From Chloroflexota bacterium (GTDB taxonomy: Bacteria; Chloroflexota; Anaerolineae; UBA1429): a DNA stretch of 57,037 nt. Position numbers and translations under genes: made by a program. The notes below the pieces were generated by a model. That model was given only the letters and a program-made list of their open reading frames with translations, made no database searches and was not told the DNA's origin. Shown one piece after another: positions 132 through 22,592 of this stretch. Each line of letters starts with the position of its first letter. Within the stretch, counting starts at the first letter, position 1. The stretch spans positions 1 to 57,037 of the forward strand of contig JAAYAW010000022.1 of assembly GCA_012719135.1 (NCBI GenBank), written 5' to 3'.

Positions 132-1271
132 TCAGTCGCTCTCCGCTGGCGAGTCCGTATTCTGTGCCTCCTCCTCATCCTCTTCGTCTCCTTCGTGACG
201 TTTGTGTGCCTGGCTTGGTGCTAGGCCATAAGTAGCCACCATGTCTCCCAGCATGCGCTCGTCGGTCTCAAAGGCGTACACAATGCGCGTCGTGTCGGGG
301 TGCTGGTGCCCCAGCAGGGTGGCCACCCATTCCAACGGCATGCCCTCATCGAGCAAGTCCTGCGCACGGCGGTGCCTGAGGGAGTGGGGCGACGTGTTGT
401 CATAAAGTCCCTCAGCCCGAGCGGCCTCCTTGACGAGCAGCCAGGCATGCGACGGGGTGATGGCCGTTCCTTTACCTCGCCCGTGTGACGCGAACAGGGG
501 AGCATAGATAGAATCGCTGCGCTCGGCGACATACTGGCGAATCAGGCGCCGCGATTCGTCCGAGAGAAAGACCGTCCTGGGTTTCCCGTTCTTGGTCGCG
601 TGCAGCCGCAGTCGACTCGCCCGACCGTCCAGTACATCCTCTCGCGTGAGCGCCAATGCCTCGCTGATGCGCATGCCGGTATCATAGAGCGTCGCCATGA
701 GCGCGCGGTTACGCAAGAGCGCCAGGCGACGAGGGCCCTTCTTTTCTGGTAAGGGCTTTCTGAGATAATGCGTGAGTACCCGGGTCGCTTGGGGATCCGT
801 GCGTCGCTGCCGGTAGCCCAGGCGGCGCTGGCCTCGTCCCTGGTCGATGCGGCGACGCATTCTGTCATACGAGATGCCGGCGGGGAGCAGGTCGTTCAGA
901 TCCAGCCAATTCATCAGGCGGCGCGCGGCGACCAGGTAGGTTCGAGAGGTCCTGGTTGTCTCCGAGGCGGCCGTCTGTGCCGGCTGGTGGGGGTCGGGAT
1001 AGGCCTCCCGCAGCCAGCGGTCAAACCCGTAGAGCGTGTCCTCCTCGATGCGCTCCAGGGGGCAGGGGGACAGGATATCGGCGGCATGGTCATTGCCACG
1101 GACGAGATGGAGGTAGCGAACGAACGCGTTCAACCCGTGCCGGTAGGTCTCTTTGGTCAGCGGACTGAGATCGAGATGATCGAGCATTCGCTCAGCGGCT
1201 GCGTTGACCGTCGTAATGGCGTCGCGATCGAGGCCTGGGGTGGGGCGATCTTCTGGTGAGAGGGCATCCAT
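132..1271 (-). CDS. Tyrosine recombinase / phage-type integrase
   Basis: This 379-residue protein should cut and rejoin DNA through a tyrosine nucleophile. An N-terminal SAM-like core-binding domain (about residues 25-115) is followed by the catalytic domain. The catalytic set is visible: Arg in TGMRISEAL, Lys in TKNGKPR, HSLRH (H-x-x-R), LLGHQHP and the Tyr of RIVYAF. The tail is very acidic (EGDEEDEEEAQ). I chose the ATG at 1271 because AAGGAG lies about 10 bases upstream; the frame stays open a further 86 codons but there runs through the promoter. No phage, cassette or cargo genes adjoin it. It could be a solitary Xer-like resolvase, a phase-variation recombinase or an integrase left by a lost element. 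The family call is firm; the role is not. Confidence 0.88.
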   Translation of the reverse strand: MDALSPEDRPTPGLDRDAITTVNAAAERMLDHLDLSPLTKETYRHGLNAFVRYLHLVRGNDHAADILSPCPLERIEEDTLYGFDRWLREAYPDPHQPAQTAASETTRTSRTYLVAARRLMNWLDLNDLLPAGISYDRMRRRIDQGRGQRRLGYRQRRTDPQATRVLTHYLRKPLPEKKGPRRLALLRNRALMATLYDTGMRISEALALTREDVLDGRASRLRLHATKNGKPRTVFLSDESRRLIRQYVAERSDSIYAPLFASHGRGKGTAITPSHAWLLVKEAARAEGLYDNTSPHSLRHRRAQDLLDEGMPLEWVATLLGHQHPDTTRIVYAFETDERMLGDMVATYGLAPSQAHKRHEGDEEDEEEAQNTDSPAESD

Positions 1272-1303
1272 AGGGCGCGGCTCCTTTGTGCCAAGGTCTA
1301 TAT

Positions 1304-1335
1304 ATATATGGTTTAATTTTGAATAAATCATATAT
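1304..1335. repeat. 12-8-12 AT-only inverted repeat over the recombinase promoter
   Basis: Arms ATATATGGTTTA (1304-1315) and TAAATCATATAT (1324-1335) are inverted copies with 11 of 12 positions matching, separated by 8 bases. The palindrome covers the recombinase -10 box and likely transcription start. Two inverted arms of 11-13 bp around a 6-8 bp centre is the usual core-site geometry for tyrosine recombinases. It may be a recombination core or an autoregulatory operator; the sequence does not decide. Confidence 0.6.
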
Positions 1336-1355
1336 CGTACTGGAGGTAAAGTCAA
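1327..1355 (-). promoter_or_regulatory. Sigma70-type promoter of the recombinase gene
   Basis: On the reverse strand TTGACT (1350-1355) and TATGAT (1327-1332) are separated by exactly 17 bases. The start of transcription would be near 1320, giving a leader of about 50 bases before the ATG at 1271. Confidence 0.7.
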
Positions 1356-2387: not shown

Positions 2388-3848
2388 CTACTTGTCAAAA
2401 GTGACTGCAGCACGCGTGCCGCTGCCGTCGCTTGTCAGCACAAACTGCCCGCGCAGATCGCGCTGCACCATGTTCTGCACCAATTGTAGTCCCAGATTCG
2501 CGTCACGCGAAAGATCGAATCCCTCTCTGAGGCCCGTGCCGTCGTCTGAGACCAACATGCGCACGCTATTGCCCGTGTCCACCAGTTCCACGGCGATATG
2601 CCCTTCCCCCCGCCCTTCCATCCCATGCTCGATGGCGTTCTGCACGAGCTCGTTGATGATCAATGCGCTCTGCGTGGCTCGCTCAGCGCGCAGCCAGATA
2701 TCCGGGCCCGTCAGGCTCAAGGTGATGCCCTTATCGCGAGGCAAGAGGCTCTGCTGAACCTGCGTGACGACGCGCCCTGCCACGTCGCGCAGATTGATCG
2801 TGATCCCCTGCCCCTGCTGAGAGAGGAACTCGTGCACAACGGCCACGCTGAGGATGCGCTGGACGCTGTCGTCCAGGGCCTGGCGCGTCTCTTCCAGTTT
2901 CGCCCGGCGCGCTTCCATGCGCATGATACTCGCGATCACCTGAAGGTTGTTTTTTACCCTGTGGTGCACCTCGCGAACAATGCTCATCTGGCTCTCGAGT
3001 TCGCGCCGCGCTCGAACGGCCTCCGTCGCATCATGGATGAGCATAAACACGCCACGCTGGCGGACCAACTCGCTCCGGCCGCCTCGCGCCAGATAGCGCC
3101 GCACGGCGGAGGGAGGCGCGCTGATCGGCAGCACCTTGCGGATATAGAGACGGCCATCCTGCTCCACGGAGCGTTCAAAGGCCCGGTTCTCGGCGATCGC
3201 CTTCTGGGTCATCTGGTAGTCTATGGTGTCTATATCGCTCACCGAGCGGTTGATTAGGCTGTCCCGGTATCCCAGCCGGCGGTATAGCTCCGCACAAATC
3301 CCGCTCATGTAGCGGATGTAGGTCTCCGAGTCCACGTACATGATGCCATCATGCTCGTGAAAGGGCGTTAGCTCCTCTGCACCGGATAGCATGCCGTGCA
3401 ACACCATCCAGATGAACTCGTACATGGCCCGCTGGAACGAACGAGCCCGGCGTCTGTGGCGCTCGTGCGCCAGCCAGTAAGCGTCGCGTGCCAGCATCGC
3501 CACCAACTGCCCGCTGGGGTTGTATACGGGAAAGATCAGCCTGGCGACGTTGGCGCCACGGACCTCAAGCGACTTGAGTCTGTGGTTACGGAGCCGCATA
3601 TCGGAGAAGCCGTCCAGTACCTCCTCCGGCTCAAGCGACCCGACTCGATCCTCAGTGTATAGCGTTGCGGACGACCTCGGGTGAGCCTGAGCTTCGATCG
3701 TCACCTGGCCGTCGCCGCGCGCCGTGTAGAGCAAGAGATCCGCACGACACAGATCGGCCGTGATGGGCAGATCCTGGCGGATCTTTTCCAACAAGGACCT
3801 GTCGTCCTGCGATAGTTCTGAGGCCGTCAATACGCGGTTGGTGCTCAT
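2388..3848 (-). CDS. PdtaS-like sensor histidine kinase (HisKA_2 type)
   Basis: A soluble 486-residue kinase with no membrane segment. The N-terminal part (about 1-150) resembles the H_kinase_N/GAF-like sensor of PdtaS. A PAS-like region follows (about 160-280). Then comes the HisKA_2 dimerisation helix with HHRVKNNLQ (near 295-303, phospho-acceptor His) and an HATPase domain with NELVQNAIEHG (N box) and SDDGTG. It should phosphorylate the ANTAR regulator encoded directly downstream in response to a cytosolic signal. I start at the ATG at 3848; a longer frame beginning seven codons earlier would place its start inside the TATAAT promoter box. The ligand cannot be told from sequence. Confidence 0.87.
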   Translation of the reverse strand: MSTNRVLTASELSQDDRSLLEKIRQDLPITADLCRADLLLYTARGDGQVTIEAQAHPRSSATLYTEDRVGSLEPEEVLDGFSDMRLRNHRLKSLEVRGANVARLIFPVYNPSGQLVAMLARDAYWLAHERHRRRARSFQRAMYEFIWMVLHGMLSGAEELTPFHEHDGIMYVDSETYIRYMSGICAELYRRLGYRDSLINRSVSDIDTIDYQMTQKAIAENRAFERSVEQDGRLYIRKVLPISAPPSAVRRYLARGGRSELVRQRGVFMLIHDATEAVRARRELESQMSIVREVHHRVKNNLQVIASIMRMEARRAKLEETRQALDDSVQRILSVAVVHEFLSQQGQGITINLRDVAGRVVTQVQQSLLPRDKGITLSLTGPDIWLRAERATQSALIINELVQNAIEHGMEGRGEGHIAVELVDTGNSVRMLVSDDGTGLREGFDLSRDANLGLQLVQNMVQRDLRGQFVLTSDGSGTRAAVTFDK

Positions 3849-3857
3849 TTCCCGCCG

Positions 3858-3866
3858 ATTATACCA
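3858..3866 (-). promoter_or_regulatory. Extended -10 promoter of the sensor kinase operon
   Basis: TGGTATAAT is a perfect extended -10 element on the reverse strand, with no clear -35. Its 3' edge is only 9 bases from the kinase ATG, so the mRNA would be leaderless or nearly so. Confidence 0.55.
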
Positions 3867-4020
3867 CATACGGTCGATCTGGGCGCGAGTCGGCGATCGC
3901 CTGCTACCACTAGGGCTGCTCGCCGCCCCGCGTGTCCATCAAGGGCTAGGCGTGTGGCACCCGAGGTGGTTATGTCTAGTTGCCCAGCGGCGGGCGTGAA
4001 ACGGGTCACTCAATCCCGAG

Positions 4021-4048
4021 TTGTCGTTCAACGTCCGGCGCGTATAAT
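4021..4048 (+). promoter_or_regulatory. Promoter of the DUF368 membrane protein gene
   Basis: TTGTCG (4021-4026), a 16-base spacer and TATAAT (4043-4048). The leader to the ATG at 4127 would be about 70 bases. Confidence 0.55.
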
Positions 4049-4126
4049 GGCGCGAGGCGGTGTGCCCTTGGCTGCTGGCGCCCCGCTCCTGCTACGAATG
4101 GATATCGCACGCGGAATGAGGCTGCC

Positions 4127-4987
4127 ATGCATTGGATTGGGCTGGTGCTGAAAGGTATCCTGTACGGCACGACGCACGTTGTGCCGGGGATTGGGGGCGG
4201 CATCGTATTGATCCTCCTGGGTGTGTACGCCGACTTTGTGGAAGCGATCGGCAACATTCTGGTGCGGCGCGATCGCTGGCGGCAGTACCTGCGCTTCCTG
4301 ATCCCCCTGGGAGTGGGCATGGTCCTGGGCGTCTTCCTGGCGGCTGTGGCGGTGGAGGGGCTCATGGCTCGCTACCCCACGGCGAGTATGCTTTTCTTCA
4401 TGGGACTGCTCCTTGGGACGATTCCCTCCGTCTTTCGCCTCAGCGATGACATGCGCCCCACAAAGGGACGTGTGGCGGCCTGCCTTGCGGGAGCAGCCTT
4501 TGTGGTCGCGATCCGTGCCCTGGAGCCTCTTCTCGCAGGAAGCACGGCCGATTTCACCCTCACCACCCCCCGCGAGATCGGCTACAACGCTCTGATGAGT
4601 TTTCTGGCCGGGGGTGCGAGCGTGACTCCTGGCCTGGACGGCTCCTACGTGCTGCTGTTGGGGGGCACCTATCCCGCGGTTCTGGGCGCCGTCGCACAAC
4701 TGAGACACCTGCAGATACACTGGGCTGCGCTGATCTCCACAGCGGTGCCTGCTGGGCTGGGCATCCTCGGGTTCTCGAAGGTGATCGATAGTGTCATCAA
4801 GCGCAGCCCTTCAGGCGCCTACTACGCTGTGCTGGGCATGATCGTGGGGTCCATCTACGGGCTCTGGCCGCAGCCACCGATCCAGGGCTCTCCCCTGGTG
4901 CTCGCGCTTTGTCTCATCGCGGGCGCGACCGTAGCTATCTTCATCGGACGTGTGCCGCAGGAGCCCGGCTTTGACGAGATCAGCTGA
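4127..4987 (+). CDS. DUF368 / PopT-family membrane protein (undecaprenyl-phosphate translocase candidate)
   Basis: A 286-residue integral membrane protein with about eight hydrophobic helices. It carries the DUF368 hallmarks: GTTHVVPGIGGG near the N-terminus and the related GGASVTPGLDGSYVLLLGG in the second half, an internally repeated glycine/proline-rich re-entrant motif. Members called PopT return undecaprenyl phosphate across the membrane for cell-wall and glycan synthesis, so this is the likely role. I begin at the ATG at 4127 (GAGG just upstream) because the preceding 49 codons of the frame are charged and overlap the promoter. The gene stands alone with its own promoter, divergent from the kinase operon. 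Confidence 0.82.
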   Translation: MHWIGLVLKGILYGTTHVVPGIGGGIVLILLGVYADFVEAIGNILVRRDRWRQYLRFLIPLGVGMVLGVFLAAVAVEGLMARYPTASMLFFMGLLLGTIPSVFRLSDDMRPTKGRVAACLAGAAFVVAIRALEPLLAGSTADFTLTTPREIGYNALMSFLAGGASVTPGLDGSYVLLLGGTYPAVLGAVAQLRHLQIHWAALISTAVPAGLGILGFSKVIDSVIKRSPSGAYYAVLGMIVGSIYGLWPQPPIQGSPLVLALCLIAGATVAIFIGRVPQEPGFDEIS

Positions 4988-5065
4988 CTCACACTCTGCG
5001 GGATGCGAGATGGCCCCCCTGCTGTCTGGCACTTCCCGCCGCCCTAACCTTCAGGGAGGTTCGAG

Positions 5066-6142
5066 ATGAAGTACAACTATGAGTATGACCGCAAGCTCCA
5101 GGTTGCCTACATCGGCGGGGGCGAGCATTCGTTCCGCAACATCCTGCCTTCCCTCCAGTACGCGCCAATCGATCTAGTGGCGCTTACTGATCACAAGGGC
5201 GACCGCGGCCTGGCCGTAGCCCGGCAGTTTGGAGCGAGGCGTTTCTACCCAAACCACAGGGCGCTGCTTGCCAAGGAGACCAGTCTGGACGCGGTCATGA
5301 TCTCGGTGGGCCCGGACGAGGAGGGCCGCCCTCGCTATCCGGAGTTGGCTGCAGAGGCGCTGGGCGCCGGATTCCACGTGTGGATCGACGAGCCTCCGTG
5401 CCTGAGCGCCGAGGACATCTCGACGTTCACCAACGCCTGCATCCGCAAGCATCGCTATCTGGCGGTGGGGTTTGTCCGCCAGTGTGCTCCTGCGTATCTC
5501 CAGGCGGCCTCTCTCATCAAGGATAAGGCCTTTGGCCAGCCCACGTCCTATGCGTTCCGCTTCCCGATGGCGCTCCCGGAGTTGACTCGCCGGCGCACCG
5601 ATAAGGGCGCTTCGGCTATGCTCCCGATCACCGGTGTGGTGGCTCTGCTGGCGGATTTGTTCGGCGAGATCAAAGGATTCTCCATGGTCCGGGGCACGGC
5701 CGGGGCCGCGGTGCTCAGTCTTCAGCACGCCAACGGAACGCCCGGTTCGCTGCATCTCACGGCGGGACAGTCGCTCTCCGCTCCTCGTGAGCGCCTCGAG
5801 ATCATCGGTCGCCGTGCCAGCCTCGTCGTAGATGGCGGCGTGCGGGTGACCTATTACCGGCGAGTGGCCCCGGTAGCGGAGGAGTTGGCCGGCAGGCAGG
5901 ATACGTCGTTCACCGGCGACGTGGACTCCGCCCCGGTTGTCTGGGCTCCCCAGCTGAACCTGGAGGAGCCGGCTGCGCAGCACATCGCCCTCTCCGGTTA
6001 CCTGGGGAGCATCCAGTCTTTTGCGGAGCAGTTGCTGGCGGGCCAGCCGCCCAAGCACGGCACTCTCGTGGACGCCCTGCACGTGATGACGGTCTTTGAC
6101 CGCCTGCGCGCCGGGAGAGAACAGGAGTGGCTTGAGGTCTAG
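5066..6142 (+). CDS. Gfo/Idh/MocA-family oxidoreductase with altered EKP motif
   Basis: A 358-residue NAD(P)-binding oxidoreductase. The Rossmann start is AYIGGGEHSFRN, and a C-terminal alpha/beta domain follows from about residue 125. Family members oxidise or reduce sugars, inositols and their phosphates. The usual E-K-P motif, whose Lys sits at the active site, reads E-P-P here (residues 109-111, in WIDEPPCL). This suggests altered catalysis, or a lyase or scaffold role. A GGGAGG site precedes the ATG. A sugar isomerase-like TIM barrel starts 27 bases downstream, and such dehydrogenase-isomerase pairs are common in catabolism of modified sugars and cyclitols. The family is clear; the substrate is not. 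Confidence 0.85.
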   Translation: MKYNYEYDRKLQVAYIGGGEHSFRNILPSLQYAPIDLVALTDHKGDRGLAVARQFGARRFYPNHRALLAKETSLDAVMISVGPDEEGRPRYPELAAEALGAGFHVWIDEPPCLSAEDISTFTNACIRKHRYLAVGFVRQCAPAYLQAASLIKDKAFGQPTSYAFRFPMALPELTRRRTDKGASAMLPITGVVALLADLFGEIKGFSMVRGTAGAAVLSLQHANGTPGSLHLTAGQSLSAPRERLEIIGRRASLVVDGGVRVTYYRRVAPVAEELAGRQDTSFTGDVDSAPVVWAPQLNLEEPAAQHIALSGYLGSIQSFAEQLLAGQPPKHGTLVDALHVMTVFDRLRAGREQEWLEV

Positions 6143-6169
6143 CTCTGGTTGATCGGCGGGGAGAGAGCC

Positions 6170-6958
6170 ATGCTTTCGTTGGGGATCTGCGCGAGGCCCG
6201 AACAGGCTGACGTGGTTGCCAGTAGTTACGACTATATCGAGCTGCCGTTTGCCACAGCGCTGGATCCCCTGCGCAACGATGCGGACTTTGCCGAGGATTT
6301 GGCTCGCTTGAAGGATCTGCCGTTGCCGGCCAGGGCGTGTAACATCTTGCTGCCTGGCCTCATGCGCATCGTCGGGCCTGAGGTAGATGGCGAGGCGATC
6401 CGGCGGTACCTGATTCGTGGCCTGGCGCGCGCCTACTCACTGGGGATAGAACGTGTCGTCTTTGGCAGTGGCGCTGCCCGCCGCGTGCCGGAGGCCTTTT
6501 CCAGAGATGCGGCCTGGGATCAACTGGTGGCCTTCTGCCGGCTATGCTCGGACCTGGCGTATCCTGGGCTGGAGATCGCGATCGAACCCCTGAACCGTCA
6601 GGAGTGCAACATCATCAACGGCTTTCCCGAGGCGGTGGCGCTGGCTCGGGATGCCGGCTGCACCAACGTGGGCGTGGTCGCGGATATCTACCACATGCAG
6701 GCCGAGTCTGAGCCGTTGGCGGTTCTATGGCAAGGCTCCGATCTACTCAAGCACGTCCACGTGGCTGACACAGACCGGCGATACCCAGGCAGTGGGAGTA
6801 ACCAACTGCCTGAGTTGTTCGCCACGCTGGATGCAATTCAGTATCAGGGCAGCGTATCCGTCGAGTGCCGCTGGGGACCGGATTTCGCGTCGGAAGCCCA
6901 CCGGGCCGCCCGATTCCTGCGTTCTATCCTCGGCCCGGCCTCACACACCAGCGCCTAG
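6170..6958 (+). CDS. Sugar phosphate isomerase/epimerase-like TIM barrel
   Basis: A 262-residue AP-endonuclease-2/xylose-isomerase-like TIM barrel. The metal-binding pattern is visible: Glu in AIEPLNRQECN, Asp/His in GVVADIYHMQ, His in LLKHVHVADT and Glu in SVECRWG. Relatives isomerise or epimerise keto-sugars, dehydrate inositol derivatives or act on 3-keto-glycosides, using a divalent metal. I start at the ATG at 6170 behind GGGGAGAG; a TTG seven codons upstream is less likely. It probably acts on the product or substrate of the adjoining Gfo/Idh/MocA protein. The substrate cannot be predicted. Confidence 0.83.
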   Translation: MLSLGICARPEQADVVASSYDYIELPFATALDPLRNDADFAEDLARLKDLPLPARACNILLPGLMRIVGPEVDGEAIRRYLIRGLARAYSLGIERVVFGSGAARRVPEAFSRDAAWDQLVAFCRLCSDLAYPGLEIAIEPLNRQECNIINGFPEAVALARDAGCTNVGVVADIYHMQAESEPLAVLWQGSDLLKHVHVADTDRRYPGSGSNQLPELFATLDAIQYQGSVSVECRWGPDFASEAHRAARFLRSILGPASHTSA

Positions 6959-7029
6959 TACTACAACCGCGATATACGAACGGCCCCGCTCGGCGATGAT
7001 GGAGGTAGCATATTGGGCCGAGGGGGATC

Positions 7030-7823
7030 ATGGAACCGGAAGACCTGAAAGAATGGAGTGATGATTTCGCCGCCTTCCATGCACGGTTTGCCTCCATCTT
7101 TCATCGCCGCGAGCCGCGCGAGCAGTGCATCAAGTACCTGCGTGGTCTGCTTGCGCAGGTAAAGCGTAAGAATGGATGGCAGTTGGCCGAGGTGGTAGGT
7201 GACAAGGTGCCGGATCGGACGCAACGGCTGCTGTATCAAGACCAGGGGGATGCGGATGCAGCGCGGGATATCTTGCAGGAGTTGGTGAAAGAGAGCTTCG
7301 GCGCGACGAAGAAGGCGTCGGCGTGGTCGACGAGAGCGGGTTTCTGAAGAAAGGCACGCACTCGGTGGGTGTGAAACGCCAGTACAGTGGCACGGCGGGA
7401 AAGGTGGAGAACTGCCAGATGGGGACCTTCTTGAGCTACGCCACCCGTCGGGGAAACGTGTTTCTGGATCGGCGCCTGTATCTGCCTGAGGACTGGAGTG
7501 CGGATGAGCCACGGCGTGCCCAAGCCATAGTGCCGGAGCAAGTACGTTCTCAGACGAAGCCGGAACAAGCAGCGGAGATGCTGGCGCACGCCTGGGAGCA
7601 AGGGATCTCCATGCGTTGGGCAGTAGGCGATGAGGTGTATGGGGAATCCACGCCGCTGCGCGATACGATCCGCAAGCACGGGCGTGGGTATGTCCTGGCG
7701 GGGTTGGCGGTGACTACCTTCTTCCGGGTACAGTTGTCGGCGCGCTTTTTCCGGGCAGACACACGGCGCTCAACTCGCAGCTTATTTCCGGAGTGCTGCA
7801 GAGAAAAATCGCCGAGTAGATGA
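7030..7823 (+). pseudogene. IS701-family DDE transposase, frameshifted and truncated
   Basis: The first frame (7030 to about 7315) encodes the N-terminal part with REPREQCIKYLRGLLAQV and RKNGWQLAEVVGD. Homology then continues in a different frame from about 7320 with VDESGFLKKGTHSVGVKRQY, SGTAGKVENCQMG and AVGDEVYGE. The switch is consistent with loss of one base near 7300-7320. The first catalytic Asp (VVDESGF) and second Asp (GDEVYG) are present. Similarity ends near 7710 (YVLAG), about half-way through a normal 400-residue IS701 transposase, so the catalytic Glu and C-terminus are missing. A GAGGGGG site precedes the ATG. The element is dead; a programmed frameshift would not explain the missing half. 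Confidence 0.88.
7030..7823 (+). mobile_element. IS701-family insertion sequence remnant
   Basis: This is the DNA copy of the broken transposase. I could not find terminal inverted repeats or a target duplication. The left edge probably lies between 6960 and 7030, and the right part of the element has been replaced by unrelated AT-richer sequence after about 7710. Confidence 0.65.
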
Positions 7824-7839
7824 TCTACTCTGCCTTTTT
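7814..7839 (+). terminator. Weak intrinsic terminator at the end of the IS remnant
   Basis: GAGTAGA (7814-7820) and TCTACTC (7824-7830) form a perfect 7-bp stem with a TGA loop, followed by TGCCTTTTTA. The stem is AT-rich, so it would be a weak terminator. Confidence 0.4.
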
Positions 7840-7856
7840 ATATACGGAGTTCAGAC

Positions 7857-8071
7857 ATGAACTTGATTCTGGATGAGATGCGATTGGATAGTGCTGTGAA
7901 GCAAATAAGGGATTACGTTTTACACTCGCGTCCATTATTGTTTGGAGCGCGGTACTGGTTGTCCACATGACTGCGTTGCCCATTTCGACCAACTCATCTT
8001 GGGCTTTAGGATTCTCCTATATGCATAATCGATTCAACAGTTCTTTTGGTGAATTGGTTATCACTTTCTGA
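7857..8071 (+). pseudogene. Decayed small membrane-protein gene
   Basis: An ATG at 7857 behind CGGAG opens a 37-codon frame beginning MNLILDEMRLDS and ending in TGA at 7970. A second frame, open across 7905-8071, reads FTLASIIVWSAVLVVHMT, a good membrane helix, and ends at TGA (8069-8071). Joined by a frameshift near 7910 they would form one protein of about 70 residues: a charged N-terminus, a membrane helix and an Asn/Ser-rich tail. The two frames overlap as ATGA at 7967-7970. I do not recognise the family. The low GC content compared with the neighbours suggests foreign origin. Confidence 0.3.
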
Positions 8072-8109
8072 ATTCGTCAAGTCGTGAAAATCATAGCGGT
8101 GAACCGCAT

Positions 8110-8271
8110 CTATTCAAGGAGTATTTGAGGTTCCGCCGTAATTGCGAAACGGACTGAGCCCTCTCGGTGCTGGTCGGTCTTGGTCAAGACTCGTTTGATC
8201 ACAACGCTCAGTCCAAGGATCTGACCGATGTATACAGAAAACTGACCAGCGATCAGCGATCGATCAACCAA
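8110..8271 (-). CDS. Possible small protein of 53 residues, unrecognised
   Basis: A reverse-strand frame starts at TTG (8271), 15 bases beyond the M23 peptidase stop, and ends at TAG (8110-8112). The product would include VYIGQILGLSVVIKRVLT and end in RFAITAEPQILLE. It has a hydrophobic centre and a charged tail. There is no good ribosome site, and the frame overlaps an inverted-repeat structure, so the frame may be chance. It might instead be a remnant of a larger gene. Confidence 0.2.
   Translation of the reverse strand: MVDRSLIAGQFSVYIGQILGLSVVIKRVLTKTDQHREGSVRFAITAEPQILLE
8151..8214. repeat. Inverted repeat with nested hairpin in the AT-rich islet
   Basis: GGACTGAG (8151-8158) is a perfect inverted copy of CTCAGTCC (8207-8214). 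Between them TCTTG (8178-8182) pairs with CAAGA (8185-8189). Possible readings are a transposon end, a small structured RNA or chance. Confidence 0.35.
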
Positions 8272-8286
8272 CCTGGCCGGTTGGTT
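8266..8286 (-). terminator. Hairpin directly after the M23 peptidase gene
   Basis: AACCAACC (8266-8273) and GGTTGGTT (8279-8286) form a perfect 8-bp stem with a 5-base loop, starting at the base after the stop codon. No U-tract follows, so it is only terminator-like. Confidence 0.4.
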
Positions 8287-9210
8287 CTACTTAACCCTGA
8301 TCGTACTATTGCGTGAATAAAACTGCCCATTGAATAACATCACCACACCTGTCCCTTTGGTCAGCGAGCCTGGTACGCGGCCTGTCTGAGCGTGGATATG
8401 AAGGTGTGGTTCGCTTGTATTGCCTGAATTTCCGACCTGACCGATCAAATCGCCGGTTTTGACCGGGCGGTTCAGTTCAACCCGGAGGCTGTCCTGTTTG
8501 AGGTGGGCGAGCAGAACCTCTACGCCCTGGCAGGCAATATAGACGTGGTTGCCCGCTGCATGCTCCGTGTCGCCGGGCGAACCTGGGGCAAGGTCGGCAA
8601 TACCATCCACCGCTTCGGTAACCACCCCTTCACAGGGGCTGTAGACCGCCTGTCCGAAAATGGCATACTGGTCCAGGCTGGTCTGCACCCACCCATCCGC
8701 TCGTTTTCCCCAGCGATCGAGCTCCACAATATCCATCGCGTTCACCTGCGAACCATGAGGATGGTGCGCGTTGACGATGGCGGCGCTGCCGGCCTGCGCG
8801 GCGTAGAAAATGCCATCCTTAAGCGGGAAGACCAGCGAAACGGAAGGAGCGGAATAGAATCTCCCGGAGAGGGCCAGGATGCTCAGGATCGAAAATAACA
8901 GGCTTGGGACGAGGTACCCGATCGAAATTGTTACCGGACTCCTTCTCACGCCGCTGGAAACCACGGTCCCTTGCTTAAGCTGCAGGAAGCCTTTTACAAT
9001 AACGATTAGCGCCGGAACCGGCGAAACATACCGCCAGGCGACGCCGAGATAATCCCAACGCCCGGATAGGAAAGAATACGCGCTTGCAGCGACCAGGAAC
9101 CAGAACTGGCAGCCCCATTCCAGCCAGGATTTTGGCCGTTGGAACCAAAAAAACAGTGCCAAAATCCCTGGAACAAGTAGCGATATGATGACGGCAAGGC
9201 CTACAAACAT
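8287..9210 (-). CDS. Membrane-anchored M23 (LytM-like) peptidase
   Basis: A 307-residue protein with about four N-terminal membrane segments (residues 1-22, 33-48, 62-77, 94-116). An extracellular M23 domain occupies roughly 150-300. The zinc and catalytic pattern is visible: Asp in VNAMDIV, His in LLAHL and the HxH of SEPHLHIHA. M23 enzymes cut peptide cross-links in peptidoglycan or secreted proteins; some are inactive regulators. The ATG at 9210 follows AAGGGAG with good spacing. The gene adjoins the IS remnant and is less GC-rich than the surrounding genes, which suggests recent acquisition. The HxxG part of the first motif reads HHPHGSQ, so activity should be tested and not assumed. Confidence 0.8.
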   Translation of the reverse strand: MFVGLAVIISLLVPGILALFFWFQRPKSWLEWGCQFWFLVAASAYSFLSGRWDYLGVAWRYVSPVPALIVIVKGFLQLKQGTVVSSGVRRSPVTISIGYLVPSLLFSILSILALSGRFYSAPSVSLVFPLKDGIFYAAQAGSAAIVNAHHPHGSQVNAMDIVELDRWGKRADGWVQTSLDQYAIFGQAVYSPCEGVVTEAVDGIADLAPGSPGDTEHAAGNHVYIACQGVEVLLAHLKQDSLRVELNRPVKTGDLIGQVGNSGNTSEPHLHIHAQTGRVPGSLTKGTGVVMLFNGQFYSRNSTIRVK

Positions 9211-9397
9211 CTAGCCAACTCCCTTGATGGTTTGCGATGGACTGAGAAGTCCGTGATGGCTGCGCTTGGCTTGGTCGGATTGGCGTCGGGCTAAACGACA
9301 ACAGGCCCGGCGTAGCCATTACCGCGGGAGAGCCCAAGGTAGGGATAATGGGCTGAACGCCCACATCAGGTCACCTTAATCATATGCGCTTGTAGTA

Positions 9398-9826
9398 CTA
9401 GTCTTTCTTCCAGGGATCGACGGGTGCATTGGGGTCCTCCGGCGCATCAAAGGGGGCAGCAGCCGGATCCTTGCGCGCCGCAAAGAGGTCCTTCAGGAAC
9501 GATTCGACTCCGTCGGAGACGGCTTGGCCGATGTCGCCCCAATCGGCATCATCGGTAGCCCCTACGATCTTCCCGATTTCGCGTCTCGCGGATTGATCCA
9601 AATGCTGGCCGATGCTCTCCCAATCGGCGTCGGTGCTTGCCCCTACGGCCTTGGCGATCCCCGTTCTCGCGGCCTCGTCCGTCTGCCTGCCGATGGTAGG
9701 CCAATCGGCCTCCGCGTCCGCGCCAACCATCCGGGCGATGTCCTTCCGAACCTGTTCCCCGATGTTGGAAAAGAGTTCCTTCCATTCCTCGGAGCTTCCG
9801 GTCGTCTTCTGTTGCTGATCGCTCAT
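9398..9826 (-). CDS. Small protein with three 27-residue tandem repeats
   Basis: A 142-residue soluble protein, unrecognised. Units begin at Ile30, Ile57 and Ile84, each reading I...VGA...ADW..IG...D...R or similar. The segment before residue 30 (EEWKELFSNIGEQVRKD) looks like half of a fourth unit. The pattern suggests a row of amphipathic helices with a buried Trp per repeat. The tail is rich in Pro, Ala and Asp (FDAPEDPNAP, VDPWKKD). There is no signal peptide or Cys. The ATG at 9826 follows AAAGGA; a start nine codons earlier lacks this. It lies 57 bases downstream of the glycoside hydrolase on the same strand. No function is claimed. Confidence 0.7.
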   Translation of the reverse strand: MSDQQQKTTGSSEEWKELFSNIGEQVRKDIARMVGADAEADWPTIGRQTDEAARTGIAKAVGASTDADWESIGQHLDQSARREIGKIVGATDDADWGDIGQAVSDGVESFLKDLFAARKDPAAAPFDAPEDPNAPVDPWKKD

Positions 9827-9883
9827 GTCGCTGTCCTTTCCATCCGTATACACGGCTCACGAACACGCTGTTCTACCGCCGAC

Positions 9884-11494
9884 TCACCTATTGCGAGCAC
9901 ACAAGAGCAACACCCAGTCCTTCGGATGACCCTCGACGATGCCACCGGGGCAGTGAAAGGCCTGGCCCTGCGGCTGTGCCCTCTCCCCTGCCCCACTGAG
10001 TGGATCAAACCAGCAGGCCTCGTACTCCCATACTGGCAGCCCCAGTTGAATAGCGCCTCCCGCGGGGAGATACGCTGCCACCGTCGTCCGGCTTTCGCTG
10101 GCGATCACCAGTGGCCGCCGCCCTGGCGCATACGACACATCGTCCGCTGCCAGGAGTTCATCGGCGACTCTGAGTTCGGCGAACGGTACCACTTCCAGCA
10201 CAAACCGTCGCAGGATGAGCAACTGCTCAAGGCCCGCCTGGTCGTTCTCCAGATCCAGGAAGGGCCCCCAACTGTTCTCGAATCCGTGGATGATGCCATG
10301 GCAGGTGAATACGCCCCTCCACGCTCCGCGACGGGTATGCTCGCGGTCGCAATAGGCGTGAGATGGAATCAGCAGGGGGAACGCGGGGTTGCGCTCATAG
10401 CCCCATTCGGCGAATACGGCGGCTCCCGGCCAGCCCTCCAGGCTTTCGCGCAGGCTCTCTTCGATGCCCGCGGCCAGCCACCCCAGCTCACGATCGCGCG
10501 TGCCCCACTCCTGATAGAGTACCAGATCGATGGCACCGGGATCAGCGGCAAACCGGCGCGCAAAGGGAGGCGTTCGAGGTCCGTTATGTACGGCTACGAT
10601 ATGTCCATGAGGCGCCGTCGACTTGAGCCAACGAGCCATGCGCAGTGCCCAGCGATCGGCGACCGGGTTATACCGCCAGTCTCCGTCCGGGTAATACTCG
10701 TACTCGTTCATCAGCGTCCAGATACTAATGCAGCTGTACGCATCGTACCGTGCGATGATGTAGCGCAGCCAGAGCTCTTCCCACTCGGGCAGAAACACAT
10801 CGCGACGGTTGAAGGGATATTCGAATCCCCAGGCCTCCAGGATCATCTCAAGGCCGATACCCAAAACCTCGGCCTGTGATACGACGCGGTCTACCGTGGC
10901 AAAGTAGTCGAGGTTGAAGCGATCGAACAGCGGGGCCTGCTCGCTGCCGCCCCACGGCCAGGTCCGTCGCGTCTGCCAGGCAGAGTATCCCTCGGGAGGA
11001 TGGAACGGACTCACCGGCACCCGCACGCGGAGCAGACTAAAGCCCTGCGCCTCGCGCCGCTTGAGGAACTGCTGCGTATCTGCGCCGCAATGCGCCATGC
11101 CGAAGAGGTTGTAGACCGTGTCTCCCAAGATGAACGCTTCTTCCCCGGATTCGTAGGATAGCCCCCACCCTCGATCAGGCGTCGCCACCAAAAAGCCGCG
11201 TACCTCAGCCGGCGCCACACTGAAGCTGCCCTCCCAGGAAAGCGCCGGATCCATTGGACTCGAGACGAGCCTGAGGTGCCACTCCCCGGCCTCGCCGGGG
11301 CTAATGCGCAGGCGCCAGGTGCCATCGCCGTCGTAAAAGGCCGGCATCCGCGCCCGCTGCCCGTGCGGCCCCTCCAGCTCAGCGTAGACGACGACGTCTC
11401 CGAACGCATTATCGTAAGCTTTGGCGCTGTGGAACGCGTACTCGGCCACATGCCGTACTTGGCCGACTCTCGGGGCGTGAATGGTGTCATCCAT
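9884..11494 (-). CDS. Glycoside hydrolase with DUF5060 domain and TIM barrel
   Basis: A 536-residue protein, apparently cytoplasmic since no signal peptide is visible. An N-terminal beta domain of DUF5060 type (about 1-85, with DGDGTWRLRISPGEAGEW) precedes a TIM barrel. Barrel features include FILGDTVYNLF, WTLMNEYEY (likely acid/base Glu) and AVFAEWGYE (likely nucleophile Glu), as in clan GH-A and DUF4038-type cellulase-like enzymes. A C-terminal beta domain ends with ACWFDPLSGAGE, typical of the collagen-binding-like domain of this group. It probably cuts plant-type oligosaccharides. The chosen ATG (11494) follows GGTGGAAAG. It is divergent from the CE7 acetyl esterase, suggesting a shared hemicellulose role. 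Confidence 0.78.
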   Translation of the reverse strand: MDDTIHAPRVGQVRHVAEYAFHSAKAYDNAFGDVVVYAELEGPHGQRARMPAFYDGDGTWRLRISPGEAGEWHLRLVSSPMDPALSWEGSFSVAPAEVRGFLVATPDRGWGLSYESGEEAFILGDTVYNLFGMAHCGADTQQFLKRREAQGFSLLRVRVPVSPFHPPEGYSAWQTRRTWPWGGSEQAPLFDRFNLDYFATVDRVVSQAEVLGIGLEMILEAWGFEYPFNRRDVFLPEWEELWLRYIIARYDAYSCISIWTLMNEYEYYPDGDWRYNPVADRWALRMARWLKSTAPHGHIVAVHNGPRTPPFARRFAADPGAIDLVLYQEWGTRDRELGWLAAGIEESLRESLEGWPGAAVFAEWGYERNPAFPLLIPSHAYCDREHTRRGAWRGVFTCHGIIHGFENSWGPFLDLENDQAGLEQLLILRRFVLEVVPFAELRVADELLAADDVSYAPGRRPLVIASESRTTVAAYLPAGGAIQLGLPVWEYEACWFDPLSGAGERAQPQGQAFHCPGGIVEGHPKDWVLLLCARNR

Positions 11495-11562
11495 TGCGGA
11501 TCGCTTTCCACCGGTGATTGGGCGCAGGTTGGTGTAGCACATCATGGCGCAGCCCTCACTCG

Positions 11563-11592
11563 ATTATAGCGCGAGGATGCGCTGCCGTTCAA
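11563..11592 (-). promoter_or_regulatory. Promoter of the glycoside hydrolase gene
   Basis: On the reverse strand TTGAAC (11587-11592), an 18-base spacer and TATAAT (11563-11568). It lies 69 bases upstream of the start codon. Confidence 0.6.
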
Positions 11593-11627
11593 CAGGCGTG
11601 CGGGCCACAGAGCGTTCACATCTTCCG

Positions 11628-11656
11628 TTGACAGAGCTGCCTGCCTGCCCTATCCT
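11628..11656 (+). promoter_or_regulatory. Promoter of the CE7 esterase gene
   Basis: Consensus TTGACA (11628-11633), a 17-base spacer and TATCCT (11651-11656). It is back-to-back with the glycoside hydrolase promoter, so one regulator could control both genes. Confidence 0.65.
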
Positions 11657-11710
11657 CGTGCTGCGCTGACCCTAAATTGCATCGGAGATACCGTCACAGG
11701 AGTACATGCC

Positions 11711-12673
11711 GTGCCTCTCTACGACAAACCGCTGGAGGAACTCGTCCATTACACACCCGCCCTTACCGGGCAGCCGGATCTGGCAGCGTTCTGGGATCAG
11801 ACGCTGCAGGCCGCCGCCAAGAGCCCGCTCAATGACACCCTGGAGGCGGTCAGCTACCCATCGCTGGGCTGCGCGGTATACAGGCTGAGCTACGACGGCT
11901 GGCAGGGCGCGCGGATCTGTGCCTGGTACCTGCGGCCGGATGGAGAAGGCCCCTTCCCCGCCCTGGTGCAGTTCCATGGCTATAGCGGGTCAAAGCAGGA
12001 GGTCTTTGGGTACCTGCCCTGGGCCTTGCAGGGATATGCGCTCCTGGCTGTGGATGTGCGCGGGCAATCCGGCGACAGCAACGACCCGGCGCCCTATCCC
12101 GGGGGCCACGTACGAGGGTGGATGACGCAAGGTATCACCGACCCGGCCACATACTACTACCGCGGCGTCTATGTGGATGGCGTACGGGCACTGGATTGGC
12201 TGTGTGGCCAAGAGGAAGTGGATAGCGCACGGGTGGGCGTTATGGGGATGAGTCAGGGAGGCGGCTTGACGCTCGCCGTCGCTGCGCTGGATCCCCGCCC
12301 TGTGTTGGCGATGCCCGAGATGCCATACCTGTGCCACTTTCGCAGGGCCGTAGATATGGCCATGCGCCCGCCCTATCTCGAGATTCCCGACTATCTGCGC
12401 CGCTGGCCTGAGCGAGAGGATGACGTGTGGCGGACTCTGAGCTACTTTGACAACATGAACCTCGCGTCTTGGATACGCTGCCCAGTACTCATGACCGTTG
12501 GCCTTCAGGACGATATCTGCCCGCCCTCGACGGTCTATGCGGCTTACAACCGGATTCTGTCGCCCAAGGAGATGCGCGTCTACCCCTATCACAATCACGA
12601 GATGGTTCAGGCGCACTGGGAGACCAAGCTGGCCTGGGCGCACCACTATCTCAAGGGATTGGACACGCTCTAG
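11711..12673 (+). CDS. Acetyl xylan esterase / cephalosporin-C deacetylase (CE7 family)
   Basis: A 320-residue alpha/beta hydrolase. The CE7 signatures are complete: VDVRGQSGDS (residues 115-123), the nucleophile elbow GMSQGGG with Ser181, Asp267 in VGLQDDICPPST and His296 in YHNHE. Length and catalytic spacing match the hexameric CE7 esterases, which remove acetyl groups from short xylo-oligosaccharides inside the cell. No signal peptide is visible, in keeping with that. Translation starts at GTG 11711 with AGGAG upstream. An ATG five bases earlier is in another frame. It is transcribed divergently from the glycoside hydrolase. Confidence 0.92.
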   Translation: MPLYDKPLEELVHYTPALTGQPDLAAFWDQTLQAAAKSPLNDTLEAVSYPSLGCAVYRLSYDGWQGARICAWYLRPDGEGPFPALVQFHGYSGSKQEVFGYLPWALQGYALLAVDVRGQSGDSNDPAPYPGGHVRGWMTQGITDPATYYYRGVYVDGVRALDWLCGQEEVDSARVGVMGMSQGGGLTLAVAALDPRPVLAMPEMPYLCHFRRAVDMAMRPPYLEIPDYLRRWPEREDDVWRTLSYFDNMNLASWIRCPVLMTVGLQDDICPPSTVYAAYNRILSPKEMRVYPYHNHEMVQAHWETKLAWAHHYLKGLDTL

Positions 12674-12702
12674 TAGATCCGCCCTGCCCTGGGGCCAGGC
12701 TC

Positions 12703-13707
12703 TCAGGGCACGATGACTGTCTTGATGTCGTCTCCCGGCCCGGCGGCGAGGAGGCCTGGAAGCTCCTCGATGTTGGCCCGTCGGGTAATGAGTGGGCCGA
12801 CCTCTAGCCTGCCCGAGCCCAGCAGCGCGAGAGCACGCCCATGGGTGAAGGGGTTGATCCGAGCGCCTCGCAGGGTGAGTTCCTTCTCGAACACCAGGTT
12901 GGGGCTGACAGTCACCGTCTGATCGGGCGGGGTGACGCCGAACCAGAGTACTGTGCCCCCCCTGCCCGCCCACGCTATCGCCTGAGCGTCCGTGGCAGCG
13001 GATCCCACCGCCTCGATCACGACGTTCGCGCCGCCCTCTAGCAATTGCCCTGCGGAGAGGGGATCCTGTGCGATTGGGTCGATGACTGCATCGGCCCCAA
13101 GCTCCAGGGCCATCTCCCGGCGGGCCGCCGAGAGGTCGCTCACGATCACGCGTCCGGCCCCCTGCAGCCTGGCCAGCTGAGCCATGATCTGGCCGATAGC
13201 GCCGCCGCCGATGATTGCTACCGTATCCCCAGAACGGACTCCGGCGAGATCCATCCCATGGATGCAGCAGGCCACGGGCTCGGCCATGGCCCCTTCGACG
13301 AGAGACAAGTTCTCCGGCAACGGGAAGCACTGCGTGATTGGAGCGACGCTGTACTCGGCGAACCCGCCATCGATGTCCACTCCGAGCGCCGTCAGGTGCT
13401 CGCACATGTGGACCTGCCCGCGGCGGCAGGGGGCGCACTGGCCGCAAGGCATGTTGGGGTCGATCGCCACGCGATCGCCAGGGCGCAGCCCCGCGACTTC
13501 CGGCCCGATCTCGGTGATCACCCCTGCGTACTCGTGCCCGATGATGACCGGAGGATGCGTTTGGAACTCGCCGTGAAAGATGTGGCGGTCCGTTCCACAG
13601 ATGCCGCAGGCGGCCACGCGCACAAGCGCCTGTCCGGGCCCCGGCCGAGGATCAGGAACCTCGGCAATCTCGAGTTGACCGGTGCCGCGGAATAGGGCTG
13701 CCTTCAT
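12703..13707 (-). CDS. Zinc-dependent medium-chain alcohol/polyol dehydrogenase
   Basis: A 334-residue MDR-family dehydrogenase. Catalytic zinc ligands lie in CGICGTD (Cys37 region), GHEYAG and the following Glu. A structural zinc loop is present (CGQCAPCRRGQVHMC). The nucleotide fold has IIGGGAIGQ, and the acidic residue in VSDLS after the second strand favours NAD over NADP. Relatives are sorbitol, threonine and galactitol dehydrogenases, so the substrate is probably a polyol or sugar acid. It lies downstream of glnA on the same strand with a hairpin between them, and converges on the CE7 esterase. Confidence 0.85.
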   Translation of the reverse strand: MKAALFRGTGQLEIAEVPDPRPGPGQALVRVAACGICGTDRHIFHGEFQTHPPVIIGHEYAGVITEIGPEVAGLRPGDRVAIDPNMPCGQCAPCRRGQVHMCEHLTALGVDIDGGFAEYSVAPITQCFPLPENLSLVEGAMAEPVACCIHGMDLAGVRSGDTVAIIGGGAIGQIMAQLARLQGAGRVIVSDLSAARREMALELGADAVIDPIAQDPLSAGQLLEGGANVVIEAVGSAATDAQAIAWAGRGGTVLWFGVTPPDQTVTVSPNLVFEKELTLRGARINPFTHGRALALLGSGRLEVGPLITRRANIEELPGLLAAGPGDDIKTVIVP

Positions 13708-13733
13708 TCGTGCAACCGCCTGTGTTCTCTGGA

Positions 13734-13747
13734 CGGCCCAAGGGCCG
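13734..13747 (-). terminator. Short GC hairpin between glnA and the alcohol dehydrogenase
   Basis: CGGCCC and GGGCCG form a 6-bp stem with a 2-base centre. No U-tract follows. It may stabilise the glnA message or partly terminate transcription. Confidence 0.3.
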
Positions 13748-13752
13748 CAGGT

Positions 13753-15084
13753 TTAGTAGATGGCCAAATACCGGTCCAGTTCCCAGCGCGTCACGGCCAG
13801 CCGGTAGCTGTCCCACTCCTGGAGTTTGGCATCGATGTATCGCTCCCACACGTGCGGGCCCAGCGCGTCCTGCACGACGGTGTCCTCGCAGGCCGCATCG
13901 ATGGCTTCCTTGAGCGAGCCAGGGAGCACAGAGAGGCTCTGGCGGGCCCAGGCCGACTCATACAGATCCTCCTCGCTCGGCTCCGGCAGCGGGAGATCGT
14001 TCTTGATGCCGTCCAGGCCGCACTTGAGCATCACGGCAAACGCCAGATAGGGGTTGCACGCCGGGTCCGGGCAACGCAGCTCCAGCCGCACCGCCTCCGG
14101 CGTCTTCGCCCGGGGGATCCGGATCAGCGCCGAGCGGTTGATGCGCGCCCAACTGACATACACCGGTGCCTCGTATCCCGCCACCAGCCGTTTGTAAGAG
14201 TTCACCAGAGGAGCGAGCACTACAGCCATGGCCCTCGCGTGCTTCAGTTGCCCTGCCAGGAATGAGCGCGCGACGCGCGAGAGGCCGTACTTGTCCGCGG
14301 AATCCGCGAACACGTTCTTCCCGGTGGAAAGGCTGGAAAGGCTCTGGTGTACGTGCATGCCCGAGCCCGCTATGCCAGCGACAGGCTTGGGCATAAAGGT
14401 GGCATACAGCCCACGCTGCTGGGCGATGGCCTTGAGCACGTATCGAAAGGTCAGAGCGGCATCCGCTGTCGGGACCGCGGGACCGTAGCGGAAGTCGATC
14501 TCATGCTGGCTGGGGGCACTCTCGTGATGCTCTGCCTGAACCTCGATGCCAAAGGCGTCCAGCGCAGCGGACATCTCCTGCCTCACCAACATGCCCCGGT
14601 CCGAGCTCGCGTCAAAGTAGCCGGCCTGATCGTGAGTGGGACGGGGAATGGGCGTTCCGCTATCGTCCGTCTCAAAGAGGAAGAACTCGAGCTCGGGGCC
14701 GACCTGGTAGTCGTAGCCGAGTTCCTCGGCTTCACGCAGGGCGGCCTTGAGGACGTTGCGCGGTGAGCCCATAAAGTCGACGCCGTCGGGGGTAAACACG
14801 TCGCAGATAAGACGAGCGGTCTTGTGCTCGCCGTTCTGCCATGGGATGATGGCAAAGGTGTCCAGATCCGGGAACAAGAACATGTCGCTTTCGCTGATGC
14901 GCGCGAACCCTTGTATCGACGAGCCATCAAACCAGAGCCCCTCGTCCAGGATACGGCTCAACTGGTTGATGGGCACTGTGATGTTCTTGATCATTCCCAG
15001 GATGTCACTGAACTGCAGATGCAGAAACCGTACCTGCTCATCGTGGCAGATTCTCGTGATATCCTCACACGTCGCTTTGGCCAT
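13753..15084 (-). CDS. glnA: Glutamine synthetase, type I (GSI-alpha-like)
   Basis: A 443-residue enzyme making glutamine from glutamate, ammonia and ATP. The beta-grasp N-terminus is followed by the catalytic domain with ELEFFLF, HHESAPSQHEIDFRYGPA, GSGMHVHQSL, NSYKRLVAGYEAP and ELRCPDPACNPYLAF. The length and the C-terminal SEEDLYESA...LPGSLKEAID resemble GSI-alpha enzymes, which lack adenylylation control and are instead feedback-inhibited. Two ATGs are possible; I choose the one at 15084 because the upstream one (15096) overlaps the GAGGTGG ribosome site. It lies 65 bases after nadE, whose product uses ammonia or glutamine nitrogen, suggesting shared nitrogen-linked expression. Confidence 0.95.
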   Translation of the reverse strand: MAKATCEDITRICHDEQVRFLHLQFSDILGMIKNITVPINQLSRILDEGLWFDGSSIQGFARISESDMFLFPDLDTFAIIPWQNGEHKTARLICDVFTPDGVDFMGSPRNVLKAALREAEELGYDYQVGPELEFFLFETDDSGTPIPRPTHDQAGYFDASSDRGMLVRQEMSAALDAFGIEVQAEHHESAPSQHEIDFRYGPAVPTADAALTFRYVLKAIAQQRGLYATFMPKPVAGIAGSGMHVHQSLSSLSTGKNVFADSADKYGLSRVARSFLAGQLKHARAMAVVLAPLVNSYKRLVAGYEAPVYVSWARINRSALIRIPRAKTPEAVRLELRCPDPACNPYLAFAVMLKCGLDGIKNDLPLPEPSEEDLYESAWARQSLSVLPGSLKEAIDAACEDTVVQDALGPHVWERYIDAKLQEWDSYRLAVTRWELDRYLAIY

Positions 15085-15149
15085 CGTCCACCTCATAGTA
15101 TTCCCGAATCGCGCTATCGCTGCCTGACCAGATCTCGATCTTTGGGGCC

Positions 15150-15938
15150 CTACCGCGTCTCCCACACCGTGCTCAGCATCGCGGGCATCACCCGTTTGAA
15201 GGCCGTACGGCCCATTGTGCGGCGAACCGCGGCCACCACTCGAGCATCAAAGCCCCGCTCAGCGATCGCCGCGTCGGTCAGCCCCGCCTCTGTCATTAGG
15301 AACAGGATCTGGTCGGCCTCGTCGTAGCTAAAGCCAAGGTCCGCCTCGTCCGTCTGTCCTTCCCACAGATCCGCACTCGGGGCCTTGTGGACGATTTCGT
15401 CCGGTATGCCCAGATGCGCGGATAGCGCACGGACCTGGCACTTGTATAGATGCGTAATCGGTTTCAGGGCCGATGCGCCGTCACCGTAGATCGTAAAGTA
15501 GCCCAGGAGCCACTCCGTCCGATTCCCTGTGCCCATCACGAGCCCATTGAAGGCAGCAGAGCAGTCGAACAGCGTCACCATGCGGAGACGAGACATGATG
15601 TTACCCAAACGGATGCCGCCCATGTCCGGCGACGCATCCACCAGCGGCCGGTACATGGGCGTAATATCGAGGTAGCTCGACGGCATGCCCAGCATCTCAA
15701 CCACCTGGCGGCCATGGGCTGTGCTGGAAGGGTTGCTGCGCTCGCATGGTAGCAACATGCCAAAAACGTTCTCCGCGCCCAGGGCTCGCACGCTGAGGGC
15801 GGCAACCAAAGCCGAGTCTATGCCGCCGGAAACGCCCAGTACGGCACGATGAAACCCCGCGCGCGCCAGGTTATCGCGTATGAATACCGCGATACGATCG
15901 GCCTCGCGTTCGGGATCGAATGTGAGTTCCTTCAGCAC
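15150..15938 (-). CDS. nadE: NAD+ synthetase, ammonia-dependent
   Basis: A 262-residue N-type ATP pyrophosphatase that amidates deamido-NAD to NAD. The PP-loop SGGIDSALVAAL lies near residues 38-50. Further family motifs are GTGNRTEWLLGYFT, YGDGAS and KAPSADLWEGQTDE. There is no glutaminase domain, so ammonia is the nitrogen source, perhaps delivered by an unlinked partner. The start is GTG at 15938 behind a strong GGGAGGAG. It is the first gene of a likely nadE-glnA transcript. Confidence 0.94.
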   Translation of the reverse strand: MLKELTFDPEREADRIAVFIRDNLARAGFHRAVLGVSGGIDSALVAALSVRALGAENVFGMLLPCERSNPSSTAHGRQVVEMLGMPSSYLDITPMYRPLVDASPDMGGIRLGNIMSRLRMVTLFDCSAAFNGLVMGTGNRTEWLLGYFTIYGDGASALKPITHLYKCQVRALSAHLGIPDEIVHKAPSADLWEGQTDEADLGFSYDEADQILFLMTEAGLTDAAIAERGFDARVVAAVRRTMGRTAFKRVMPAMLSTVWETR

Positions 15939-16012
15939 GTCTCCTCCCTGCTCCGGCGGATTGGCATGAGATCACCTGTCGACAAAGCGCTGGGGTGCAC
16001 GCGAACCGAGAG

Positions 16013-16041
16013 ATCATAGTCTCAAGGGCGAGCCCTGTCCA
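16013..16041 (-). promoter_or_regulatory. Promoter of the nadE-glnA transcript
   Basis: On the reverse strand TGGACA (16036-16041), a 17-base spacer and TATGAT (16013-16018). The leader before the GTG at 15938 is about 70 bases. Confidence 0.6.
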
Positions 16042-16072
16042 GTGCCGGCGGCGCGCTGGATGAGGCCGGCGC

Positions 16073-17809: not shown

Positions 17810-17859
17810 TATCGCTACTCCCCTCTTGGCCACGATCAGCGGCCCGATGCCTTCCAAGC

Positions 17860-17888
17860 ATTATAGGGGCGAAGCCGCCGGGACTCAA
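17860..17888 (-). promoter_or_regulatory. Promoter of recJ
   Basis: TTGAGT (17883-17888), a 17-base spacer and TATAAT (17860-17865) on the reverse strand. Its position supports the downstream GTG as the recJ start. Confidence 0.7.
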
Positions 17889-18005
17889 GCCGGGCTCCGA
17901 TCACTGCACGCTGGCATCGGAGCACGCAGATCAGCGCGGGCGCCGTGGGGTCGCAGGGCCAAGCCGGAGCAGACCGTGCTGCCAGTCGCGAACGGCCACG
18001 CCCTG

Positions 18006-18014
18006 TGATAGAAT
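18006..18014 (+). promoter_or_regulatory. Extended -10 promoter of fmt-lipB
   Basis: TGATAGAAT fits a TG-n-TAGAAT extended -10 element, 35 bases before the fmt GTG. No convincing -35 is visible. Confidence 0.4.
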
Positions 18015-18049
18015 CGACGAATCAGCGGGTTCGCCAGGAAGGAGTTCCA

Positions 18050-18988: not shown

Positions 18989-18989
18989 C

Positions 18990-20649: not shown

Positions 20650-20674
20650 TTCCGTTCCTCCCTGTTTTGCTGCC

Positions 20675-20703
20675 ATCCTAGTGCACGCTGTGCGCGTGAT
20701 CAA
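20675..20703 (-). promoter_or_regulatory. Promoter of the PfkB kinase gene
   Basis: TTGATC (20698-20703), a 17-base spacer and TAGGAT (20675-20680) on the reverse strand, 25 bases before the ATG. Confidence 0.55.
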
Positions 20704-20755
20704 GCCCCCCGATAGATCTGTTGTCCCGTGTGCGCTGGCAGCTGCCCCCTGAGTG

Positions 20756-20764
20756 TGATACACT
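20756..20764 (+). promoter_or_regulatory. Extended -10 promoter of the phosphoesterase gene
   Basis: TGATACACT resembles TG-n-TATACT, 28 bases before the ATG at 20793. The -35 is poor. Confidence 0.35.
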
Positions 20765-20792
20765 GCCGTGGTGTCCGAAAGGAGGCTTGAGC

Positions 20793-22586: not shown

Positions 22587-22592
22587 CGCGTT

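Follow-up and report, generated by a model that had tools for sequence, protein, structure and literature searches.

The window, by which we mean the whole 57,037-nucleotide stretch of Chloroflexota DNA analysed here, carries near its left end a tyrosine recombinase gene and, in the intergenic DNA upstream of its annotated start, an AT-rich palindrome (Table 1). On the plus strand the palindrome reads ATATATGGTTTAATTTTGAATAAATCATATAT and consists of two 12-bp arms, complementary at 11 of 12 positions, around an 8-bp centre. The preliminary description had presented it as an AT-only 12-8-12 palindrome; the geometry and the 11 matches hold, but the sequence is not AT-only, with A/T at 28 of its 32 positions and G/C at the other four. 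The 28 bp that we propose as a dif site are A/T at 24 positions, and their 11-bp arms match at 9 of 11 positions in the window and at 10 of 11 in close orthologues. The palindrome ends 32 bp from the recombinase start codon, an adjacency that is conserved in relatives. Just to the right of the site, at 1792-3869 on the minus strand, an ANTAR response regulator stands beside a PdtaS-type histidine kinase (GAF_PdtaS, HisKA_2).

Table 1. Features of the proposed dif locus, in window coordinates
Feature	Position	Strand	Sequence	Basis
Palindrome, 12-8-12, 11/12 arm matches	1304..1335	.	ATATATGGTTTA ATTTTGAA TAAATCATATAT	
Proposed dif site, 11-6-11, 28 bp	1306..1333		ATATGATTTAT TCAAAA TTAAACCATAT (gene orientation)	Conservation in 11 orthologous loci
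Promoter -10 element, within site	1332-1327 (1327..1332)	-	TATGAT	Consensus scan
Promoter -35 element	1355-1350 (1350..1355)	-	TTGACT	Consensus scan
RBS-like motif ahead of ATG at 1271	1281..1287	-	AAAGGAG	Sequence
Tyrosine recombinase, 379 aa, dif-linked clade, proposed XerC substitute	132..1271	-		PF00589, E 4e-28; own clade in tree
Ten KOPS-type octamers right of site, pointing toward site	span 2601..41821	-	GGGNAGGG	

A consensus scan finds a minus-strand sigma-70-like promoter, TTGACT and TATGAT separated by a 17-bp spacer (1355-1327), that overlaps 1304-1335, confirming that the palindrome sits on the recombinase promoter. Judged from this anatomy, the recombinase is likely to bind its own promoter, as had been proposed. 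Because the site overlaps the -10 box, bound recombinase would lower its own transcription, and the overlap thus suggests autorepression.

The encoded protein conserves the catalytic residues R-K-H-R-H-Y (R201, K227, H296, R299, H322 and Y332) and falls short of the cut-offs of the XerC, XerD, XerA and XerS models. It scores 94 and 97 bits against the NCBIfam XerC and XerD models and passes neither cut-off (335 and 330, respectively); it reaches 104 bits against XerA, far under the 220-bit cut-off, and a weak 41 bits against XerS (cut-off 267). Its best full-length matches in NCBIfam and the PDB are of the XerA type, and the PDB sequence match to XerH is weaker than those to XerA and XerD. An AlphaFold model (pLDDT 85.6, pTM 0.58), in which the domain orientation is uncertain, matches the structures of XerA, XerD and XerH.

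Palindrome geometry by itself is weak evidence, since five palindromes of the 12-8-12 form, each with 11 or more matches, occur in the window, and we dropped it as an argument in its own right. Another 12-8-12 palindrome of the window, at 1713, is a terminator-like hairpin. What raises the palindrome at 1304-1335 above chance is its conservation in relatives.

Conservation of the palindrome beside its recombinase

Of the 14 other genomes in the family, 10 encode an orthologue of the recombinase, as does one genome from a related family; its named counterparts are from Anaerolineae or Chloroflexi metagenome genomes. The palindrome is kept upstream of the orthologous gene in all 11 f1-type loci that have upstream DNA, the window among them. 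Across these loci identity averages 87% over the 28 columns of the site, versus 45-55% in the flanks, and the consensus, ATATGATTTAT-TNANNA-TTAAATCATAT, shows few changes. Linked to its recombinase, overlapping the promoter and conserved in homologous loci, the palindrome bears out the earlier suggestion of a tyrosine-recombinase core site.

A search of the window's own genome allowing up to three mismatches found no second copy of the site, as expected of a dif site, and this genome has one close copy of the recombinase gene. Family-wide, a pattern search returned a single strong match per genome, adjoining the recombinase gene (in G002, the match lies on an overlapping contig); in the four family genomes without the gene, the same search found the site absent too. 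The gene is present in G007, on a contig that ends before the site position. Two contigs of G292, C157 and C233 (loci L212 and L211), each carry the site; with flanks about 75% similar, this pair is probably due to a contaminating sibling genome rather than to a second copy.

These data bear on whether the palindrome is only an operator, at which the recombinase or another dimeric regulator represses the recombinase promoter with no strand exchange. Its overlap with the -10 box and its place immediately ahead of the gene in most relatives are what such an operator would show. However, in G017 and G292 (genus g16) the site lies about 1.3 kb upstream, past a permease-like gene, with no mismatch, and its retention despite this separation argues that it is not merely an operator. 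The terminus position, the KOPS polarity and the canonical dif cores in relatives, described below, would not be expected of an operator. We therefore regard an operator-only role as unlikely, while noting that operator and dif functions can coexist at one site.

A protein profile search identified about one related recombinase per genome in 77 of the 396 genomes of the class. Many of these, in other Anaerolineae families, have a different dif-like palindrome at the same upstream place: TGTTACACAAT-GTTG-ATTAAGTAACA in f4, ATTTAAGATAA-TATATC-TTATCTTAAAT in f7 and TTTCAGATAA-TGCGGA-TTATCTGAAA in f43. When compared with the core of canonical dif, inner ATAA plus TTATGTTAAAT, the sites of G087 (f7) and G211 (f43) each agree in 14 of 15 positions, and it is the relatives with canonical cores that support the 11-6-11 arrangement and fix the register of the site at 1306-1333. 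In some relatives both half-sites are of the XerD type. Upstream of the related recombinases of f36, no clear palindrome was found. Separately, some 160 bp ahead of a related recombinase in G310 (L069, f50) there is a palindrome, GACATAA-TGTATA-TTATGTC, whose centre is that of E. coli dif.

No AT-rich palindrome was found upstream of 36 canonical xer genes of the class, which speaks against promoter palindromes being general among xer genes. For f1 and f4 genomes we also considered a distinct canonical dif close to the terminus; the stretches read gave only one weak match (12/15, in G009).

Chromosomal position and KOPS polarity

Cumulative GC skew reaches its maximum within 60 bp of the site in G010, G009, G008 and G087 (stretches of 200, 49.5, 29 and 27.7 kb, respectively) and within 29 bp in G013. 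Because such exact offsets are helped by gene borders and by the composition of the recombinase gene, the longer stretches carry the weight. In G230, a single contig, skew is positive to about 1.25 Mb and negative thereafter, and the site, at 1.2637 Mb, lies about 16 kb from the switch. The switch is about 10-30 kb from the site in G147, G347, G017 and G211; the signal is ambiguous in G164, and no switch was seen in G106. Most relatives on longer contigs therefore have the site at or close to the change from positive to negative skew: four f1 relatives, G087 and G230 fit a terminus position, and G147, G347, G017 and G211 do so approximately. A constant orientation of the gene relative to skew was considered and dropped, since the terminus reads from positive to negative in either orientation. 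G230 also has a CRISPR-like repeat near GTGCAGACGCTAAAGTCCGTTCGAGGACACTGAAAC, which appears several times in the terminus region and directly adjoins the recombinase locus (L063), and, at C1 4320001-4340000 (L111), a 20-kb stretch whose GC content is 25%, compared with about 63% for the genome.

Across 11 genomes, KOPS-type octamers (GGGNAGGG) point toward the site 168 times and away from it 42 times (80% toward), versus a median of 65% toward for octamers of matching composition. The ratio in the window is 11:2 (p 0.011); to the right of the site, the only octamers pointing away are two on the plus strand, at 28499 and 44902. GC skew for the window's own genome covers the window only, and here the bulk skew of the right flank is slightly positive (+0.014) where a negative value is expected; the window thus lends octamer support and no bulk-skew support. 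An open frame at 7323-7823 on the plus strand resembles a DDE transposase fragment, judged from sequence; as a possible sign of local rearrangement, it might bear on this unexpected skew.

Xer complement of the genomes

The window's own genome encodes a canonical XerD on contig C27 (336.1 bits; cut-off 329.6), which rules out the linked recombinase as the sole Xer of the genome and means that it is not the sole candidate to act at the site. FtsK-gamma was found in 15 of 15 genomes searched, and the window's genome has FtsK-gamma proteins. We then compared Xer content, taking genomes of 90% completeness or more that encode one or more canonical Xers, in a count that ignores finer relatedness: two canonical Xers are present in none of 54 genomes with a dif-linked recombinase versus 58 of 118 without one (Fisher 7e-13) and, by family, in 0 of 16 versus 18 of 27 (p 1e-5). 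The less complete genome G310 (f50) has a dif-linked recombinase in a family otherwise carrying two canonical Xers.

Phylogenetically, where a genome has two Xers the second one clusters with E. coli XerC (92/80), and the dif-linked recombinases form a separate clade (100/100). The single Xer found beside a dif-linked recombinase never falls inside the XerC group; the kept copy is of the XerD type, which identifies XerC as the missing enzyme. Because genomes carrying the recombinase never have two canonical Xers, it probably replaces XerC, and this unusual enzyme seems to have done so in many Chloroflexota families.

The same data speak to a reading in which the site is dif, canonical XerD acts there alone and the neighbouring recombinase has some other job. 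Such an arrangement would fit the retention of XerD and FtsK-gamma and the XerD-type half-sites on both sides in some relatives. Against it, gene and site stay linked even between distant families, and a second canonical Xer is excluded where the recombinase occurs, the pattern expected of an enzyme that has taken the place of XerC; this reading is improbable.

The least credible reading takes the palindrome for a site at which a mobile element attaches or inverts, and the recombinase for the integrase or invertase of that element. Many integrases do have a core site beside their tyrosine-recombinase gene, yet there is a single site per genome, the gene occurs once in most genomes of the family, our search of viral contigs turned up no related protein, and the exact viral-contig matches to the site (36, 5 and 0) lie in AT-rich or unrelated DNA without the outer palindrome. 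Nor is there support for inverting or excising neighbouring DNA, which the preliminary description had entertained, as one copy per genome, the terminus position in relatives and KOPS polarity favour dimer resolution.

A candidate dif site and its likely enzymes

Nearly all bacteria with circular chromosomes need dimer resolution. Anatomy, conservation, single copy, terminus position in relatives, KOPS polarity and co-occurrence together point to the palindrome as the chromosomal dif site, the place where dimers are resolved before cell division, and we put the probability of this reading at about 0.8. Homologous recombination would leave sister chromosomes joined in a dimer that holds two copies of the site; FtsK, tracking KOPS octamers toward the site, would bring both copies together at the septum and may activate the reaction there. 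With tyrosine recombinases on both 11-bp arms, strands would then be cleaved and exchanged across the 6-bp centre, yielding two monomers. The recombinase adjoining the site is most likely among the acting enzymes, standing in for XerC, with the canonical XerD of the same genome as its probable partner. Alternatively, it may act alone, as XerS, XerH, XerA or XerL do, a mode that the near-identical arms still allow.

The proposed system shares features with several known ones. It resembles archaeal XerA/dif in that the best full-length matches of the recombinase are XerA-type, though far below the XerA cut-off; in some archaea, xerA adjoins dif. Gene-plus-dif modules are already known as XerS/difSL and XerH/difH (PMC5357621, PMC2731167), and XerA has been described as FtsK-independent (PMC5357621). 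XerS (356 aa) of streptococci and lactococci is encoded beside its dif site, difSL, at the terminus (PMC5357621, PMC2731167); the recombinase described here is of similar length and likewise adjoins its site, but XerS is a single recombinase whose site measures 31 bp and has a centre of 11 bp, whereas the present site is 11-6-11 and its genome retains XerD. XerH/difH of Helicobacter and Campylobacter offers a similar protein length, a dif near the gene and a place for XerH among the fold matches; genomes with XerH/difH have only one Xer, however, and here canonical XerD is present too. XerL of Legionellales, a recent example, is divergent and missed by homology searches, has a palindromic dif at the skew maximum, and adjoins its site on a Coxiella plasmid (PMC9765430); XerL is sufficient alone. 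With XerCD/dif and FtsK/KOPS the system has in common the 11-6-11 site, KOPS polarity and the presence of XerD and FtsK-gamma, but in place of XerC it has a dif-linked recombinase of a separate clade. It therefore differs from the single-enzyme modules by keeping XerD and from canonical XerCD by lacking XerC.

We tentatively suggest, at somewhat under even odds, that this is a third layout for dimer resolution: a two-enzyme system that has lost XerC and whose separate-clade recombinase is both encoded at dif and controlled by it. If so, dif occupancy would directly gate expression of the recombinase.

An earlier dif survey covered Chloroflexota by three Dehalococcoides predictions only (PMC3025954), and in the open literature we found no paper on dif in Anaerolineae. 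The finding supplies a candidate terminus marker and a likely resolving enzyme for the families in which the palindrome is seen, together with a compact module of site and recombinase that is testable in E. coli, and it suggests that XerC gave way to a dif-linked enzyme in 16 sampled families.
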